Assembly (NCBI RefSeq): GCF_014644295.1 | Contig: NZ_BMKK01000006.1 | Span: 124,001-188,000 of the forward strand | DNA: 64,000 nucleotides | Reading direction: 5' to 3' | Origin: Emticicia aquatilis | GTDB taxonomy: Bacteria; Bacteroidota; Bacteroidia; Cytophagales; Spirosomataceae | In this document: in pieces, positions 20,255-58,152 of the stretch | Position numbering within the stretch: position 1 is the stretch's first letter | How the letters are laid out: each line of letters starts with the position of its first letter | Program-made: the position numbers and the translations under genes | The notes under the pieces: model-generated | Database searches by the model: none | What the model was told of the DNA's origin: nothing | The model's input: the letters and a program-made list of their open reading frames with translations, nothing else

Positions 20255-20326
20255 ATTAAGAGTTAAGAATTAAGAATGTAGAATTTATCCGCCATTCTTA
20301 ATTCTACATTCTACATTCTTAATTAT
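20255..20326. repeat. Palindromic AATTAAGAATGTAGAATT repeat between atpD and atpC
   Basis: The left arm AAGAATTAAGAATGTAGAAT (about 20265-20284) faces the inverted copy ATTCTTAATTCTACATTC (about 20294-20311) plus a further partial copy. The right end stops 7 bp before the atpC ATG. The same words recur at 51803-51903 before the coxM-like gene. Confidence 0.8.
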
Positions 20327-49436: not shown

Positions 49437-51803
49437 ATGAGTAATAAATATATAGGTCAGTCCGTCAAGCGGGTTGAAGATAAAAGGTTCATTACAGGCC
49501 AAGGACGATATACTGATGATATTGTACTGCCACGCATGGTACACGCCTACATTTTGCGTAGCCCTTATGCACACGCCCGCATCAAAAGCATTGATACGAG
49601 CGAAGCTCTGGCTATGAAAGGTGTGGTGACTATTTATACAGGCAAAGACTTTGAGAACATCAACGGTGTGCCGTGTGGTTGGCAAGTCAATTTCAAAGAT
49701 GGTACAACCATGCGTGAGCCAAAGCACCCACTTTTAGTTTTGGATAAAGTAAAACACGCAGGCGATGGCGTAGCGATGGTAGTGGCCGAAACCAAAGAAA
49801 TTGCTGCCGATGCTGCCGAAGCAATTAACGTAAAATATGAGGTTTTGAAGGCCGTAACAAACCCGAAAGAAGCCCTTGCTCCTGGTGCTCCGCTCGTACA
49901 CGATGAATACCCAGATAATGTTGCTTTTGATTGGCAAATCGGAAATGATAAAGCTGAGGTTGATGCAGCAATGGCCTCGGCTCATCATATTACTAAATTA
50001 GATTTTACGAATAACCGTGTTGTGCCTAACGCAATGGAGCCACGCAGCTACATCGGCGATTACGATACGGCCTACGACCGTTATACGCTTTATACATCTA
50101 CTCAAAATCCGCACTTAATTCGCCTACTTATGTGTGCCTTTGTGCTTGGTATTCCCGAGCATAAGGTACGTGTAGTAGGGCCAGATGTAGGTGGAGGTTT
50201 CGGTAGTAAAATTTATCATTACACCGAAGAAGCTCTGGTAACTTGGGCTGCTAAGCAACTACGCCGCCCAATTAAGTGGACTTCTGACCGCTCAGAGGCT
50301 TTCTTGACAGATGCTCACGGTCGTGACCACGTTTCGACTGCCGAAATGGGTTTCGATAAAGATGGACATATCGTCGGGCTTCGCATCAAAACTTACGCAA
50401 ACCTTGGTGCGTACCTTTCTACGTTTGCTTCGGCAGTACCCACCTATTTGCACGGAACACTCTTGCAAGGTGTTTATACCACGCCAAAGATTCATCTCGA
50501 CATGACTTGTGTATTCACGCACACCACAGCCGTAGATGCGTATCGTGGGGCGGGGCGTCCAGAGGCAACTTATTTGCTCGAAAGATTAATGGATGTATCG
50601 GCTCATGAAATGGGCATTGACCCTGCCGAACTTCGTTTCAAAAACTTCATTCCTCCGTTTGATGGAGTCAATCAGCCCGGTTATCAAACCCAAGTAGCCT
50701 TGCAATATGATAGTGGAAACTATAAGGCTGTTTTAGAACGTGGTTTAGAAATGCTCGGTTATGCCGATTTCAAAGAAAAACAAGCCGAAGCCCGAAAGAA
50801 TGGAAAACTTTTGGGAGTTGGTTTCTCGACTTATATCGAGGCTTGCGGAATTGCTCCGTCGGCCGTTGTAGGGGCTCTGGGTGCAAGAGCAGGTTTGTTT
50901 GAGTCGGCACAAGTACGTGTTCAACCCACAGGAAAAGTAAGTGTTTATACAGGCTCACACTCGCATGGGCAAGGCCACGAAACCAGTTTCGCACAAGTAG
51001 TAGCCGATAAACTCGGTATTCCGTTAGCCGATGTCGAAATCATTCACGGAGACTCTGATTCGGTAGCTTTTGGTATGGGAACTTACGGTTCACGAAGCTT
51101 AGCCGTTGGTGGAAGTGCCATCGTAAAAAGTATCGAAAAAGTCCTTGAAAAAGGAGCAAAAATAGCAGCTCATAAATTAGAATGTTCGGCCGATGACCTC
51201 GATTTTGCTGATGGTAAATGGACAGTAAAAGGCACAGATAAATCAATTGGTTTCGGCGATGTTGCCCTTACGGCTTATGTCCCGCACGTTTATCCAGCCA
51301 ATTTAGAGCCAGGTCTCGACTTCTCGAGCTTCTATGACCCAGCTAATTTTACTTATCCGTTTGGTTGCCATATTGCCGTAGTGGAGGTTGATGCTGAAAC
51401 TGGAAAAGTGACTATTAAACGCTTCGTAGCCGTTGATGATGTAGGTAATGTAATTAACCCAATGATTGTAGAAGGTCAAATTCATGGTGGATTGGCCCAA
51501 GGCATTGGTCAAGCATTGCTCGAAGGAGTAATTTATGACGAAAACGGCCAATTAACCACTGGAACATTCATGGATTACGCCATGCCTCGTGCCGACGACC
51601 TACCGATGTTTGAAACCGACCGTAAAACAACGCCTTGTCCGCACAACCCACTGGGTGTGAAAGGTGCTGGCGAAGCGGGTGCAATCGGCTCAACACCAGC
51701 AGTCGTAAACGCCGTAATGAATGCCACTTGGCACTTGGGCGTGAGTGACCTCGAAATGCCATTAACTCCACAAAGAGTGTGGCGAGCAATGAACCATAAA
51801 TAA
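49437..51803 (+). CDS. coxL: Molybdenum hydroxylase large subunit, form II CoxL-like
   Basis: 788 residues from [20 protein letters not shown]. It binds the Mo-molybdopterin-cytosine dinucleotide cofactor. GGGFGSK near residue 260 and the active-site loop AYRGAGR at residues 368-374 mark it as form II; form I CO dehydrogenases have AYRCSFR, where Cys binds copper. The catalytic Glu746 is in [13 protein letters not shown]. The substrate is therefore an unknown aldehyde, purine, heterocycle or perhaps CO. It would work in a CoxLMS heterotrimer. The frame's upstream extension from 49383 is repeat-derived and rejected. Confidence 0.93.
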
Positions 51804-51903
51804 TTAAGAATGATGAATTAAGAATTAGGCATTCATATTAAAGGAATATCTAATTCTTGATTTTTTAAAATTCTTAATTCTACATTCTTAATTTTTAATT
51901 CTA
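51803..51903. repeat. Palindromic AATTAAGAAT repeat between coxL and coxM
   Basis: The left part (AATTAAGAATGATGAATTAA) and right part (AATTCTTAATTCTACATTC) are inverted copies of the repeat also found between atpD and atpC. The right end lies 8 bp before the coxM ATG. Confidence 0.8.
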
Positions 51904-51910
51904 AAAAAAT

Positions 51911-52762
51911 ATGCTACCAAATACAGTAGATTATTATAGAGCAAGCTCGGTCAGTGACGCCCTTAGTGTTTTGAAGGCGAATCCTGACGCAAAAATATTG
52001 GCGGGTGGACATAGCCTAATTCCTGCGATGAAGCTACGCCTCAATAGCCCTTCGATGGTGATTGACATTGCCAACTTATCTGATTTGAATTATATCAAAG
52101 AAGAAGGCGGAAACATTTGCATCGGTGCCATGACTACGCACGGACAGATAGCCCATTCATCGCTTCTTGCCGAAAAACTACCTCTTTTTACCGAAACTGC
52201 CGATGTAATTGGCGATGTGCAGGTACGAAATATGGGAACAATCGGAGGAAGTATCGCTCACGCTGACCCATCAGCCGATTGGCCAGCGGCTCTTTTGGCG
52301 GCTGATGCTTCAATCGTAGTTACGAATGGAGATGATACAAGAAGCATTTCTGCGGTCGATTTTTTTGTAGGTTTTTTCTCTACGGCACTCGAAGAAGGCG
52401 AAATCATCACCGAAATCCAAGTACCAGTACCCGCAGCAGGCACAAAAATGACTTACCAAAAATTCATGCAGCCAGCCTCTCGCTTTGCGATTGTGGGCTG
52501 TGCCGCAATGGCAAAAGTCGAAAATGGTGTGGTTGCTGATGTGAAAGTTGCTTTTACGGGTGTTTCGGATGGGCCATTCCGTGATGGAAATGTAGAAGCG
52601 GCTATTTCGGGCAAAACAGCAACTGCCGAAAATATCGCTTCGGCGGCTGCACAAGCGGCCTCTGACGTAAGCCTCAACGCCGACCATTATGCCGATGAAG
52701 ATTACCGCCAACATTTGGCAAGAGTATATGCCAAACGAGCCTTAACAGCTGTTTGCAGATAA
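51911..52762 (+). CDS. coxM: Molybdenum hydroxylase medium subunit, FAD-binding
   Basis: 283 residues. FAD-binding motifs: ILAGGHSLIPAMKLRLNSP and the second loop VRNMGTIGGSIAHADPSADW. The C-terminal CO dehydrogenase flavoprotein domain ends VYAKRALTAVCR. It receives electrons from CoxS and passes them to quinone or another acceptor. It completes the S-L-M set, here in the order SLM and not the MSL usual for form I genes. A long-loop terminator-like hairpin follows before coxD. Confidence 0.95.
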   Translation: MLPNTVDYYRASSVSDALSVLKANPDAKILAGGHSLIPAMKLRLNSPSMVIDIANLSDLNYIKEEGGNICIGAMTTHGQIAHSSLLAEKLPLFTETADVIGDVQVRNMGTIGGSIAHADPSADWPAALLAADASIVVTNGDDTRSISAVDFFVGFFSTALEEGEIITEIQVPVPAAGTKMTYQKFMQPASRFAIVGCAAMAKVENGVVADVKVAFTGVSDGPFRDGNVEAAISGKTATAENIASAAAQAASDVSLNADHYADEDYRQHLARVYAKRALTAVCR

Positions 52763-52774
52763 TTAATACCTCAC

Positions 52775-52844
52775 AAAAAGGCATCGAAAACGCACTTATT
52801 ATCCCTTGAAAGGTTAATATAATTGTGTTATCCATGCCTTTTTT
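52775..52844 (+). terminator. Possible terminator or attenuator after coxM
   Basis: AAAAAGGCAT (52775-52784) pairs with ATGCCTTTTT (52834-52843), followed by T and a G-T run. The loop of about 49 nt is long, so it may be partial or regulatory. Confidence 0.5.
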
Positions 52845-52910
52845 GTTTTCTTTGTTTAGAGATAAAACTTTCATAAAATCAGAGATTGTTTAGACCCGTG
52901 ATTTTCATCA

Positions 52911-53795
52911 ATGAATTTAGATACTATTAAATCACTCCTCCAATCGCAAGGCTATATTACCGACGACTACGTCTCGATGTCGGTCTTTTTGGCTATGACG
53001 CTCAACAAGGCACTCTTGATTGAAGGGCCTGCGGGTGTAGGAAAAACTGAAATAGCCAAAGTAATGGCAAAGGCGTTGGACACCAACTTGATTCGTTTGC
53101 AATGTTATGAAGGCTTAGATTCAAACCATGCCATTTATGAATGGAACTACCAACAACAGTTGCTTTTTTTGAAAATGTCAGAAAACCAAGAGCTTTCAAA
53201 CACAAACTTGCTTGAATCTCAACTTTTCTCAGATAAGTTTTTATTAAAACGCCCACTTTTACAAGCCATTTCACAAGAAAAAGCACCTGTTCTACTCATT
53301 GATGAAATGGATAGAGCCGATGAAGAATTTGAAAGTTTTCTCCTCGAAATACTTTCGGATTGGCAAATCACGATTCCAGAAATTGGCACAATTCAAGCGA
53401 AATCTATCCCGCACGTAATCATCACAGGCAACCGCAATCGTGAACTTTCGGAGGCTCTTCGCCGAAGATGCTTGTATTTATGGATTGATTACCCCGAATT
53501 CGATAAAGAACTCGAAATTGTAAAACAAAAAGTACCACAAATTGACGCCCAACTGGCCTTACAAATTACGAAGTTCATGCAGCATCTTCGCCACGAAAAA
53601 CTCAATAAAGTGCCAGGTATTGCCGAAACGCTTGATTGGGCAACGGCTTTGGCTGCCATGCACTTCGACCATCTCGACAAAGAAATAATAGAAAGCACTT
53701 TAGGCGTAATTCTGAAAGATTGGCAAGACATTCGTAATACCCAACTTTCACTTTCTGAATTAATGGAAAAAGTTGGCGTTACTTCAAGACTTTAA
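52911..53795 (+). CDS. coxD: MoxR-type AAA+ ATPase, CoxD-like
   Basis: 294 residues. Walker A is GPAGVGKTEIAKVMAKAL (about residue 39 on). Walker B is VLLIDEMDRADEEFESFLLEIL. VIITGNRNRELSEALRRRCLYLWIDYP supplies sensor and arginine finger regions. CoxD and the VWA protein CoxE form an AAA+/VWA pair needed to mature the Mo centre of CO dehydrogenase-type enzymes. Its partner lies downstream, but a 476-bp GxxExxY unit separates the two genes. Cytoplasmic. Confidence 0.93.
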   Translation: MNLDTIKSLLQSQGYITDDYVSMSVFLAMTLNKALLIEGPAGVGKTEIAKVMAKALDTNLIRLQCYEGLDSNHAIYEWNYQQQLLFLKMSENQELSNTNLLESQLFSDKFLLKRPLLQAISQEKAPVLLIDEMDRADEEFESFLLEILSDWQITIPEIGTIQAKSIPHVIITGNRNRELSEALRRRCLYLWIDYPEFDKELEIVKQKVPQIDAQLALQITKFMQHLRHEKLNKVPGIAETLDWATALAAMHFDHLDKEIIESTLGVILKDWQDIRNTQLSLSELMEKVGVTSRL

Positions 53796-54271
53796 TTTCC
53801 CGCAAAAATCGCTGAAAAACGCAGACTTTTTACACAATAATACAATAGAGCATGACTGAAAATGACATTTCGTACAAAATTAGAGGTGCGATTTATGAAG
53901 TTTATAAAAACTTAGGGCCAGGTTTACTCGAATCGGTTTATGAAGCTGTACTAACTTTTGAACTTCAAAAGCTTGGTCTAAAAGTTGAAACTCAAGTGCC
54001 CGTTCCTGTGGTTTACAAAGACCAAAAATTAGAAGTTGGCTTTCGGCTTGATATTTTGGTTGAAAATAAAGTAATTATAGAAATAAAATCCGTCGAAAAC
54101 TTAGCAGAAGTTCACCATAAACAGGTGCTTACTTATCTTCGATTAACAGGGTTAAAATTAGGTTTATTGGTCAATTTCAACAGCGATGATATTTTAAAAT
54201 CAATTTACAGAAAAGTAAATAATTTATAGAAAATCCAACTTTCAGCGTTTTTCTGCGATTTCTGCGGGAGA
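53796..54271. mobile_element. GxxExxY gene unit with 30-bp terminal inverted repeats
   Basis: The left end 53796-53825 and the right end 54242-54271, taken as reverse complement, agree at 26 of 30 positions without gaps. Differences are at four single positions. The unit begins one base after the coxD stop (53795) and ends 9 bp before the coxE ATG (54281). The only gene inside is the 125-residue GxxExxY protein. No transposase and no clear target duplication were seen. Words in the ends (TCTGCG, TTTCAGCG, TTTGCGGGA) resemble dispersed Bacteroidota repeats. Confidence 0.65.
53852..54229 (+). CDS. GxxExxY protein, PD-(D/E)XK nuclease-like
   Basis: 125 residues. The naming motif is G24-L-L-E27-S-V-Y30 in GPGLLESVYEAVL. 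A PD-(D/E)XK-type active site is visible as Asp67 in GFRLDILVEN with Glu77-Ile-Lys79 in VIIEIKSVEN. The C-terminal part LLVNFNSDDILKSIYRKV is standard for the family. GxxExxY proteins are widespread and often multicopy in Bacteroidota; their activity is not established to my knowledge. Here the gene lies inside inverted repeats in the cox-like operon. It has no signal peptide and is complete. Confidence 0.88.
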   Translation: MTENDISYKIRGAIYEVYKNLGPGLLESVYEAVLTFELQKLGLKVETQVPVPVVYKDQKLEVGFRLDILVENKVIIEIKSVENLAEVHHKQVLTYLRLTGLKLGLLVNFNSDDILKSIYRKVNNL

Positions 54272-54280
54272 ATAGAAACA

Positions 54281-55423
54281 ATGCTTCAAAGAGAAACCGA
54301 AATATCTGCTCATATTGTGGCTTTCAGTCGTTATTTGCGGGTGAAAGGCTTCATGGTTTCGCCCATGCGAGAAAGCGATGCACTTTTGGCACTGACACAC
54401 ATCGAACCTACCAAACAAAATTTCTACTTAGCACTTCGGTGTGTTTTCCCTCAAAACTTTAAGAATTTAAAAGATTTTGATGCCATTTTTGATAACTATT
54501 GGAAAGAACTCGAAAAAGGTGTTGACGCAAAGATTGCAATGGCCGAAGAAGAATCGGCCAAGAAAAAGAAGAAACCCGTTGAAAAAAAACAATCTGCTCC
54601 AGCTTTTGAATCATTAAAAAACTGGCTTTACGGCAATAAGGAAAAAGAGGAAGAATTGGCGGCTTATAGCGACAATGTTTCGCTCGAAAAAAAGGATTTT
54701 TCTGCTTTTACAGATGAAGATTTAGCCGAAGCCGAAAAATTAATCAAACTGATTGCCAGACGTTTAGCCCAAAAGCCAAGCCGAAGATTCGAGCCAACTC
54801 GCCGTGGCGGAGTTTTGGATTTACGCCGAACACTTCAAAAAAACTTCCGAAATGGTGAAGAAATCCTATTTCTGCACCATAAAAAAGCCAAACCTACTCG
54901 TGTAAAGTTGTTTCTGATTTGCGATGTAAGCAAATCAATGGAAATTTACAGTCGATTTTTCGTGCAGTTTATGTATGCCTTCAAAAAAGTATATCACCGC
55001 ATCGAAACTTATGTGTTTAGCACTTCATTACAACGAATTTCGGAAGAACTCAATGAATCTGATTTCCGCACGGCCCTACAAAAAGTTTCGGACACAGTTC
55101 CTCATTGGGCAGGCGGAACCGATATTGGACAAAGCTTACAAAATTTCGCCGAAAACGACTGCCAACGGCTTCTCGACCGTAAAAGTATTGTTTTGATAAT
55201 CAGTGATGGCCTTGACATGGGCGAACCTGAGCTTGTAGAAGACAGCCTAAAAGCCATCAAGAAAAGAGCCAATAAAATCGTATGGCTCAATCCACTGGCT
55301 GGTCATGCGGGCTATAAACCAGAAGCTCGTTCTATGAAAGCCGCCCTCCCACTACTTGATGTGTTTGCATCAGGACACAATTTTGAAACTTTGAAAGAGG
55401 TGATTTTGAAGTTAAAAGTTTAG
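54281..55423 (+). CDS. coxE: VWA-domain protein, CoxE-like
   Basis: 380 residues. An N-terminal helical part (1-200) has a charged Lys/Glu segment near 87-130. The C-terminal VWA domain shows the MIDAS in order: FLICDVSKSMEIYSRFF (DxSxS), GGTDIGQSL (Thr) and LIISDGLDMGE (Asp). It partners CoxD for Mo-centre maturation. The stop overlaps the stop of the opposing gene by 3 bp (TTAG at 55420-55423). Its start is 9 bp after the right inverted repeat of the GxxExxY unit, so its ribosome site may derive partly from the repeat. Confidence 0.93.
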   Translation: MLQRETEISAHIVAFSRYLRVKGFMVSPMRESDALLALTHIEPTKQNFYLALRCVFPQNFKNLKDFDAIFDNYWKELEKGVDAKIAMAEEESAKKKKKPVEKKQSAPAFESLKNWLYGNKEKEEELAAYSDNVSLEKKDFSAFTDEDLAEAEKLIKLIARRLAQKPSRRFEPTRRGGVLDLRRTLQKNFRNGEEILFLHHKKAKPTRVKLFLICDVSKSMEIYSRFFVQFMYAFKKVYHRIETYVFSTSLQRISEELNESDFRTALQKVSDTVPHWAGGTDIGQSLQNFAENDCQRLLDRKSIVLIISDGLDMGEPELVEDSLKAIKKRANKIVWLNPLAGHAGYKPEARSMKAALPLLDVFASGHNFETLKEVILKLKV

Positions 55424-58152
55424 TTTGCCACACACCTAAAACCCACCGTTGCATTTCGCTCAAAACCTTCCGAGACTCGTAATAAATGCTGGCGATGCGT
55501 AAGTTTTTGTGGCCCACCTTGTACATACCACCAGCTTGAAGTCGGTTTGAAGTATGAGCCACCTTTCAACATAATGTATTTGTATGAGCCATTTTGATAA
55601 ATATCATTGGTTAGTTGCCAAACACTACCTACCAAATCATTGATTTTCAAGGCATTTGTACCGCTTGGGTATTTTCCAACAACACTTATTCTTCCATCTC
55701 CAATATTTATTTTCGTCGAATCGAAGTCTTTTCCCCACGGATATTCACGGGCATCGGGATATTGAGCGGCATATTGCCATTCTTGCTCAGTCGGAAGCCT
55801 TTTTCCTTTCCACGCACAGTAATTTTGGGCATCTTCATAACTGACATATACCGCAGGGAAGTTTGCCAAAGTATCAGGCATTTTCTTGGCTTGCCAATGT
55901 TTCAGAAAATTCTGAGCGTCGGTGGGCTTGTATTTTGATTGTATCAAGAAAGTCTGAAACTCAGCATTGGTCACCAAATTTTGGTCTATCCAAAAGCTTT
56001 TCATGGTTTTCTCCATGCCACTTTGTCCGTCGGGATAAAACACAAAATCATCGCCACGAGTAAAAGTAAACTTAAAATTCCCTGCTGGCACTTGTACCAT
56101 ATTTTTTGTATTTAAAACAGCTTTTTTGTTGGTTTTATGAGTGCTTACTAATCGAGGTGTACCTGCTTTTATTTCAAAAACTCGTTCATCAATAATCCTT
56201 TGATTATCAAACAATTGCACTACAAATTTACCTTCGTATTCCTCAAAATAATCCATGAGTTTTATAGAAAAACTTTGCTGGTTTTTGAAAGATTTATATT
56301 CCTTCTCATAGCTTGGCGAACCCGCCCAAATTCTGACTTCTGTTCCTTGTTTTGCTTCTACTTTCAATGAATCTACGTAAATATTCAAGCTAATTTTGAG
56401 GAGATTGGGAAATTTTGCAACCGCATCGACCTCACCTTCATTATTTGTACCCAACCAAGAAGCATTGAACGCATCTGTTTCGGCTTCGATATAGAATTTG
56501 CCATCATTTTGCTTGTTTGGCGTAAGCTCTTTATGATGCCAAAGGTCGATATAATGATAATCTTTCGTAGAATCTACCGCAAATAATGCACCTTTGAAGC
56601 CTTCGGTAATCAAGCTAAAAATTGTATAAATCGCTTCTTTGCCATTTTCGTGCTTCCATTCATTGACGTAGATTTTATCTTTTAGTGTAGAAATGAGTGG
56701 AATGTAGTTTTTTGAGTGAAAAAATGCCGAGTTTTCCCGCAAAATTCTTGAGGTTTTACCTAAATAACGGTATTGTTCATCGAGCCATTCGAGTGGTTTT
56801 CCATTTCTGAAAATATTCAATTCTGTACCATAACCATTAAAAAATGCAGTTGCAAACTCTCTTTTGATTGGTTCGAGATACAATTCGGCTACTCTAAAAA
56901 TAGCAAAATCTGGTCGAATAAATTTATTGAGGTTCAACATCGGTGGATAGTACAAAGCATTATGCACTCGCCCCGAAATTATTCCAGGCATATTTTTCGG
57001 CACGGCCATTCCTTCCGAATACATAACCACGCCTTTTCTGACCCCATCAGCCGCCGCTTGCAAATCTCTACTCGATTCTCCTTTCGTATCAAGCACCACA
57101 CCATCAGCCGAAATTTCCTTTACCAACTCCGCCATACCATCAAGATGCCCTTTTTCGCCTTCTTTGGCTGAGGTTTTATAACTCGTACTTTCGTCCCACG
57201 GATTATAACAAATGAAGAATTTAGTGTCTTGTTTTCGGGAATATTCGGCCAATTCTCGCAATTTTGGTAGTCCACCCGGCAAATCTCGGAATAAATCCCA
57301 TTGATTTCGTTGGTCAAGTCCGAGCGTTGGCCAAGTTGGCCAAATTCCTACTACATCGTTTCCTCCGTAGAGTTTTTCGCCATTTTTCAAGAAGTTCTTA
57401 TACGCATCATAGCCATCTTTAGGCGTGTAAAACCACTTATCCCACGCCATAACTAAATGCATGACGTAAGTATCTTGAATCCATTTCAAATCTTCTCGTT
57501 GATAAAGCGACTCGTCGAATTTTTCCACATCATACAAGTAATTTTCTTGAAAAACCTTTCGCACACCATCTTGCCAGGTTCCTTCATAAAAATCAGCATA
57601 GAGTTCATAAACAACCGTTCCTTGGGGAGCAACAATTGTCTCAAAACGCTTGCGAGTGGCTTTCTCCCAACTTTTTCGCCGAGTAACGGCACAAACTTTC
57701 TGTCCGTTTGCGAGTTCAATTCCTGCATAGCCCAACTCCCAAGCGTTGTCAGGCACAATGACATTTACAGGAACTTTATTTGGCTGAAAAAGATGCGTGC
57801 GAGAAAGCCAATGGTCACCCAAACCTGTCATATAAACATGCTTTTCAGAAGCACCAAACGGTACTATATTTCGGAGGTTGAGCGTATCTTTTGATATATT
57901 TTTGAAAACAATTTTAGCTTTAAAAGCATTTCTAAAGTATCCTTCTTCGGTGTAAGTAATTTCAAATTTTGAAGTCCAATCTTTGTTTAGCGAAGACGTT
58001 GCCTGCTTATTAATTTCAAACGAAATCAAGGGTAAAGATTCAACGGTTTTGGTATTTGAAATGCTTTTGATGGCAAAATCATCAAGCTGTATTTTGAGAT
58101 GCTGAGCCTGTAAAGTCAACGAGAAAAAGAGGAGAAATAAAGTTTTTTTCAT
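55420..58152 (-). CDS. Exported glycosidase-like TIM barrel fused to SUMF1/FGE-like domain
   Basis: 910 residues with a signal peptide (MKKTLFLLFFSLTLQAQ). The N-terminal part is beta-rich (to about 220). A TIM-barrel-like central region follows (about 220-560) with WPTWPTLGLDQRNQWDLF, FICYNPWDES and GVVLDTKGESS. The C-terminal region (about 682-910) is a formylglycine-generating-enzyme-like domain: MVQVPAGNFKF, ENxxTNAEF-like LVTNAEFQTFL, WKGKRLPTEQEWQYAA, VWQLTNDIY, and the terminal VGFRC. The catalytic Cys pair of true FGE is not seen, so that domain probably binds a ligand. It may cleave and recognise surface glycans. It opposes the cox genes. Confidence 0.72.
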   Translation of the reverse strand: MKKTLFLLFFSLTLQAQHLKIQLDDFAIKSISNTKTVESLPLISFEINKQATSSLNKDWTSKFEITYTEEGYFRNAFKAKIVFKNISKDTLNLRNIVPFGASEKHVYMTGLGDHWLSRTHLFQPNKVPVNVIVPDNAWELGYAGIELANGQKVCAVTRRKSWEKATRKRFETIVAPQGTVVYELYADFYEGTWQDGVRKVFQENYLYDVEKFDESLYQREDLKWIQDTYVMHLVMAWDKWFYTPKDGYDAYKNFLKNGEKLYGGNDVVGIWPTWPTLGLDQRNQWDLFRDLPGGLPKLRELAEYSRKQDTKFFICYNPWDESTSYKTSAKEGEKGHLDGMAELVKEISADGVVLDTKGESSRDLQAAADGVRKGVVMYSEGMAVPKNMPGIISGRVHNALYYPPMLNLNKFIRPDFAIFRVAELYLEPIKREFATAFFNGYGTELNIFRNGKPLEWLDEQYRYLGKTSRILRENSAFFHSKNYIPLISTLKDKIYVNEWKHENGKEAIYTIFSLITEGFKGALFAVDSTKDYHYIDLWHHKELTPNKQNDGKFYIEAETDAFNASWLGTNNEGEVDAVAKFPNLLKISLNIYVDSLKVEAKQGTEVRIWAGSPSYEKEYKSFKNQQSFSIKLMDYFEEYEGKFVVQLFDNQRIIDERVFEIKAGTPRLVSTHKTNKKAVLNTKNMVQVPAGNFKFTFTRGDDFVFYPDGQSGMEKTMKSFWIDQNLVTNAEFQTFLIQSKYKPTDAQNFLKHWQAKKMPDTLANFPAVYVSYEDAQNYCAWKGKRLPTEQEWQYAAQYPDAREYPWGKDFDSTKINIGDGRISVVGKYPSGTNALKINDLVGSVWQLTNDIYQNGSYKYIMLKGGSYFKPTSSWWYVQGGPQKLTHRQHLLRVSEGFERNATVGFRCVAN

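Follow-up and report, generated by a model that had tools for sequence, protein, structure and literature searches.

The window analysed here is a stretch of 64,000 nucleotides from Emticicia aquatilis, in which a unit of 476 bp (53796–54271) holding a GxxExxY gene of 125 aa occupies the gap between the genes called coxD and coxE (Table 1). The site, a gap between two protein genes, does not lie in a 23S rRNA gene, and Rfam gave no match in positions 50000–57000 of the window. A sequence-only reading of this DNA had described the unit as bounded by 30-bp ends, and the left arm and the reverse-complemented right arm do carry identical letters at 26 of 30 positions. An inverted-repeat search returns the arm pair as 33 nt with 85% complementarity, the sole inverted pair within 53500–54500. 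The arms of the unit score 41; the highest score among 198 equally spaced shifted windows, taken from 33 GxxExxY loci, is 24. The ends are not the plain 30-bp terminal repeats for which they had been taken, since each is a run of sub-words of about 10 bp. Of the borders given earlier, the spacer of 9 bp between the right arm and the ATG of coxE (54272–54280) is correct, but no base separates the coxD stop from the start of the unit. The 125-residue gene with its GxxExxY motif, D67 and E77-x-K79 was found in the translation as described. The name coxE fits PF05762, whereas coxD is that reading's own label for an AAA ATPase whose top NCBIfam model is MadB, below its cut-off.

Table 1. Positions of the unit, its neighbours and gene-less hairpins in the window.
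Feature	Position	Strand	Remarks
Gene-less hairpin	20263–20322		built of 7-bp words
Gene-less hairpin	51796–51899		facing arrays of 7-bp words; same gene cluster as the unit; at the junction between an 806-aa ORF ending at 51803 and an ORF starting at 51911
Upstream neighbour, AAA ATPase called coxD	52911–53795	+	stop ends at 53795
Left arm	53796–53825	+	TTTCCCGCAAAAATCGCTGAAAAACGCAGA; outer end TTTCCC, then words CGCAAAA, CGCTGAA, CGCAGAC
GxxExxY gene, PD-(D/E)XK nuclease-like, 125 aa	53852–54229	+	
Right arm	54242–54271	-	reverse complement TCTCCCGCAGAAATCGCAGAAAAACGCTGA; words CGCAGAA, CGCAGAA, CGCTGAA
Downstream neighbour coxE, VWA_CoxE, PF05762	54281–55423	+	ATG at 54281

The GxxExxY protein

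The protein exceeds the cut-offs of both TIGR04256 (149.3 bits against 35) and PF13366 (PDDEXK_3; 145.5 bits against 22). PF13366 is its sole Pfam match; no known transposase domain, that of HUH (Y1) transposases included, was found by Pfam in the gene-bearing copy, and the S23/IVP profile PF05635 does not match the protein. E27, Y30, D67, E77, K79, Q91 and Y95 are invariant, among other columns, in all 29 aligned proteins, which also keep the GxxExxY motif together with the D and ExK residues. The AlphaFold model has a mean pLDDT of 95 and a pTM of 0.89. A Foldseek search with this model yields a single solved fold under E 0.001, namely 4ic1 (SSO0001, a Cas4 nuclease; E 7e-4, TM-scores 0.48–0.55 on the query); lambda exonuclease comes next among the solved folds at E 0.05. 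Cas4 profiles in PADLOC match weakly (E 0.011–0.035), a PHROG annotated as CRISPR/Cas-associated matches at E 1e-5, and a sequence search of the PDB with the protein returned nothing. The protein is predicted to be a single-domain PD-(D/E)XK nuclease of the Cas4/RecB type with distant kinship to Cas4.

The GxxExxY protein is under purifying selection. The dN/dS ratio is 0.03–0.12 in seven of eight pairs, with dS above 1 in three of these; in the eighth pair dS is not computable and each copy has a stop. Such strong selection suggests that the protein is of use to the host. Of 296 genomes sampled from the phylum, 152 have GxxExxY matches, with up to 12 copies per genome, and the own genome has three, the third being diverged and partial. 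With the window protein alone as query, 8 of 72,556 plasmid records and none of 50,697 phage records match. At 56 of 64 loci the gene runs in the direction of the upstream ORF and at 46 of 64 in that of both neighbours, counts that come without a background control; it is probably read from host transcripts.

Word arrays with and without a gene

Degenerate words of the form C[GA]CN[GA]A[GT] make up the arms; of 392 steps from one word to the next, 342 measure 8, 9, 10 or 11 bp. Immediately outside the first word, TTAAC is the most frequent sequence (25 of 199 ends). Each of the three GxxExxY matches in the own genome is bounded by inverted arrays, the words differing between them. Among 33 loci from the phylum and the own genome, 28 beat all 198 shifted windows. 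In a harder control, the left and right flanks came from different loci; its 99th percentile (53.9) was passed by 3 of the 33 loci and its 95th percentile (32) by 19, the distribution being heavy-tailed because loci share words. A collection scan of 80 loci reached several phyla; four loci were dropped for short flanks, and 56 of the 76 tested lay above the 99th and 29 above the 99.9th percentile of 1453 same-contig windows. With 40 loci added, the enlarged set comprises 156 genes in 153 loci (duplicates L045/L097 and L170/L249 included), of which 151 genes are testable. Inverted arms at a score of at least 26 are found at 110 of these 151 genes, and 41 are without them. The combination of gene and arms is found again in several phyla.

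The core words have a density of 49.9 per kb (299 in 5995 nt) in the arms of 108 GxxExxY loci (L097, the same place as L045, was left out), against 9 per kb (54 in 5995 nt) for the same words in the reverse sense. Mismatches between the arms show no leaning towards G.U on the coding strand (98 vs 97). There are 82 convergent array pairs 200–2000 nt apart; a GxxExxY gene lies inside 55 of them, and the remaining 27 are tandem hairpins, short spacers and ordinary genes.

Some loci show other arrangements of genes and arrays. At L099 (1978–3742), an ORF of 518 aa that looks AAA ATPase-like by eye lies between word arrays beside the GxxExxY gene and is possibly other cargo. Upstream of the GxxExxY gene of L092 (9024–9839), hairpins stand in a tandem row about 110 bp apart, and at L271 and L280 two near-identical GxxExxY genes lie in tandem within a single array set.

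Word type was placed on a tree of 141 proteins, 99 of them word-labelled, which rests on few columns and leaves 60 of 137 inner branches unsupported. Word type changes 33 times on this tree, against a mean of 61.1 and a minimum of 53 in 500 shuffles. Shuffles restricted to copies within genomes (10 genomes, 31 copies) gave a mean of 42.7 and a minimum of 35. The arms follow the lineage of the gene, not that of the host. Residue 122 (V or I), a mere candidate for reading the word, is tentatively associated with word position 2 (phi 0.66, resting on 3 well-supported independent pairs).

The same words also build hairpins that hold no gene. A search of the own genome for the word pattern with at most 2 mismatches gave 10 matches, namely the two ends of the unit and eight extra arms. 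These eight arms occupy five gene-less places, three of which have both arms at equal distance. Another 8 matches carry 3 mismatches, which is background level (11 in a backward-read control). The 80 scan loci (1.28 Mb) contain 190 three-word arrays, where a Markov control has 0; a further 15 hairpins without a gene lie over 700 nt from the GxxExxY gene. Within the genus of the window, as scored by eye, one gene-less hairpin can be recognised in 5 of the 9 genomes that have the flank. A second one, scored in 11 genomes, is intact in 1, has decayed in 3 and is missing from 7. In 400 kb of the own genome there are 17 periodic inverted repeats, against 2 in one Markov control; periodic repeats of 7-bp words in the window number 2, against 1 in a Markov control, a count that is not by itself above the control.

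PF05635 is the profile of the protein of 23S rRNA intervening sequences, a four-helix bundle. PF05635 genes outside rRNA also lie between inverted arrays, which consist of 7-bp words (L028, L029 and L030 in the own genome; L061–L090). Their arms have an identity of 0.56 at lag 7 and of 0.57 at lag 14, and the GxxExxY core words occur in them at 1.7 per kb. The signal is weaker here, a score of 26 being reached at 17 of 33 loci and all shifted windows being exceeded at 10 of 33. A leaning towards G.U is absent from these arm mismatches as well (16 vs 17). The Coxiella intervening sequence is reported to have tandem heptamers and a terminal stem (PMC4990558), and these heptamers fit the heptad arrays around four-helix-bundle genes.

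Presence and absence at fixed junctions

The coxD–coxE unit is present in all three genomes of the genus that have a full-length CoxE (the own genome, G008 and G010), and no empty site was found among these three. The CoxE match in G009 is weak and covers 34 residues only. The copy in G010 has an in-frame stop and has retained both arms. Since the unit is carried by all three congeners, one of them with this stop, the coxD–coxE insertion is not fresh. By eye, the G010 copy resembles the window copy much more in its second half than in its first.

The sequence-only reading had looked to close relatives for empty coxD–coxE sites. The gene is indeed absent from the junction in other genera, at all seven loci where CoxD was verified directly upstream (70–73% identity), but the junction is filled throughout the three congeners. 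The gaps at the seven loci are empty at 7, 7 and 29 bp, carry repeat-like letters at 55 and 70 bp and are gene-less at 234 and 235 bp. CoxE matches were found in 43 of 200 genomes of the family. Twenty-seven further family loci were inspected, and the 20 without an upstream CoxD match, seven of which have gaps of 1–4 bp, are uncounted. At L287 and L290, where upstream CoxD is unconfirmed, pairs of small ORFs upstream of CoxE resemble toxin–antitoxin modules by eye. Because an intergenic position is usual for GxxExxY genes, the intact flanks, once read as a choice of junction, say little about targeting.

At one junction in Flavobacterium, 194 genomes gave a match; the 50 places matching best, a non-random sample, were sorted by eye. 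The gene is present at 13 of these 50 places, a gene-less hairpin at 28, and a remnant, an empty site or other genes at 9. The hairpins are of three kinds, and one of the gene copies (L203) looks frameshifted. On a tree of the flanking gene, to which four further loci were added (among them L127, identical to L171), the gene/no-gene state requires no fewer than 8 changes (14.7 on average in shuffles, minimum 9), and all junction states taken together require no fewer than 21 (31.1 on average in shuffles, minimum 26). Since this tree is weak and recombination among congeners could produce the same pattern as gain and loss at this junction, the changes of state should not be read as numbers of transposition events. 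The gene-less hairpins at the Flavobacterium junction would be candidate alleles for cutting by a putative homing endonuclease.

Wherever two GxxExxY copies are alike over 80% or more, they have the upstream flank, if not more, in common, and alike copies at different places were not found among them. Therefore, none was observed at a new location. By eye, the flanks showed no target duplication, the sites compared lacking a near-identical empty allele.

A putative mobile element and the known systems

The recurrence of the gene with mirror-image word arrays in several phyla suggests an undescribed kind of small mobile element. The anatomy of the unit, its recurrence, the coupling of word and protein, the gene-less siblings, the presence and absence at fixed junctions and the purifying selection are established. 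On balance, we lean towards the view that the unit is a palindromic-array element, REPIN/RAYT-like, whose movement we infer and whose Cas4-like nuclease would recognise its own arrays. The nuclease gene lies between two facing arrays of a degenerate word of 7 bp, with a spacing of mostly 8–11 bp and often with a TTAAC/TTTCC-like sequence at the outer end. The nuclease would bind these arrays, or hairpins formed by them, and cut there. Such cutting may let gene-bearing and gene-less copies enter new intergenic gaps or, alternatively, sites already holding such a hairpin. The palindromes would spread slowly, with long residence between moves.

The small mobile cassette proposed by the sequence-only reading is supported by the recurrence of gene and arms across phyla, by the gene-less siblings and by the gene-less junction in seven of seven other-genus loci, although the insertion is not a fresh one. 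The proposal had been set to fall if all relatives carried the gene at this junction with diverged flanks or if GxxExxY genes elsewhere lacked similar ends; the junction is gene-less in other genera, and the arms recur elsewhere. Rarity on plasmids, absence from the phage records, the 41 of 151 genes without arms, the few loci beyond the 99th percentile of the harder control, the negative results on copies in new places and on target duplications, the weakly resolved junction tree and the strong selection count against a mobile element.

The main rival, a nuclease that serves the host in repair or defence, draws on the strong selection on the protein and on the upstream flank, at least, being retained by alike copies. 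Such a nuclease would have spread passively, and the arrays would be operator or self-marking sites that travel along because they are needed for control or safety. The dN/dS values of 0.03–0.12 in seven of eight pairs, the retention of at least the upstream flank by near-alike copies and the distant Cas4 kinship are what this account explains. However, gene-less hairpins of the same words stand elsewhere in the genome, some of them decaying in congeners, and the arms flank the gene on both sides and not at a promoter. Together with matches in 152 of 296 genomes of the phylum and copy numbers of up to 12, these features make a host nuclease unlikely, though it keeps an appreciable chance.

The unit may also act at the level of RNA in the manner of 23S rRNA intervening sequences, the arms pairing in the transcript, RNase III cutting the stem and the mRNA tolerating the insert. 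The orientation of 56 of 64 genes along the upstream ORF (a count without background control) and the parallel of four-helix-bundle genes in heptad arrays are consistent with this, as are the heptamers and terminal stem of the Coxiella intervening sequence (PMC4990558). However, such a working is weakened by the lack of a G.U bias in the arm mismatches (98 vs 97, and 16 vs 17 around four-helix-bundle genes), and Rfam is empty for 50000–57000; we regard it as rather improbable. Periodic intergenic hairpins are common in the own genome (17 in 400 kb vs 2 in one Markov control), and the gene could have landed by chance in an ordinary host hairpin such as a terminator or an mRNA stabiliser. This is very improbable, given that word type tracks the protein and not the host, that the words are unlike those around four-helix-bundle genes and that gene-less hairpins are decayed or missing in congeners.

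A wider scheme that builds on the palindromic-array element is offered tentatively, as possible but not probable. GxxExxY genes would be the autonomous members of a mobile class spanning several bacterial phyla, in which the Cas4-like nuclease recognises the word arrays, copies palindromes with and without the gene from site to site and turns gene-less hairpins into gene-bearing ones; four-helix-bundle genes with heptad arrays would form a second, convergent class, and rRNA intervening sequences would be those of its members that landed in rRNA. The word grammar tied to GxxExxY genes provides a testable substrate for the protein, and it is a possible source for many short intergenic repeats. 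The four-helix-bundle parallel provides a frame for testing the long-unexplained rRNA intervening sequences. A literature search, with most subscription papers outside its scope, found no account of the function or mobility of GxxExxY genes or of these words.

The unit touches on several known systems. QxxxY is a motif of Cas4/RecB/lambda-exonuclease-type nucleases, with which the protein shares the predicted fold (4ic1) and the order of the conserved D, ExK and QxxxY. Unlike these, it is a single short domain within its own repeat element; the profile matches are weak and the TM-scores modest. With 23S rRNA intervening sequences (PMC4990558), the unit shares a single small ORF and inverted ends with short repeats, and the PF05635 genes outside rRNA in the own genome share their layout. 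However, the protein is a different one, the word length of those sequences is 7 bp, and the unit has no rRNA context. As its site is not in a 23S rRNA gene and PF05635 does not match, assignment to the intervening sequences was rejected. Intergenic heptamer repeats (PMC4679880, PMC4692102) likewise consist of short periodic words, partly in facing pairs in Xanthomonas, but in the parts of these reports available they are not tied to a gene inside the repeats, and their word length is 7. Within the insertion sequence/MITE group, a classical insertion sequence was rejected by the tested features, no known transposase domain being found in the gene-bearing copy.

RAYT is an HUH (Y1) transposase, and in the lack of such a gene a RAYT system proper was rejected by the tested features as well. 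The system of REPIN/BIME palindromes with the RAYT (TnpA-REP) transposase (PMC3116915, PMC2817692, PMC8266576) shares with the unit short intergenic palindromes, copies without a gene, a cognate gene that these repeats flank and long residence in the genome. In contrast to that system, the cognate protein here is a predicted PD-(D/E)XK nuclease, degenerate words set about 10 bp from one another form the ends, and several phyla are involved. Gene-less palindromes that share the repeats flanking the gene, by which REPIN/RAYT is recognised, were found at five places in the own genome and 15 times in the flanks of 80 loci. In the way it would work, the unit appears to resemble REPIN/RAYT most.
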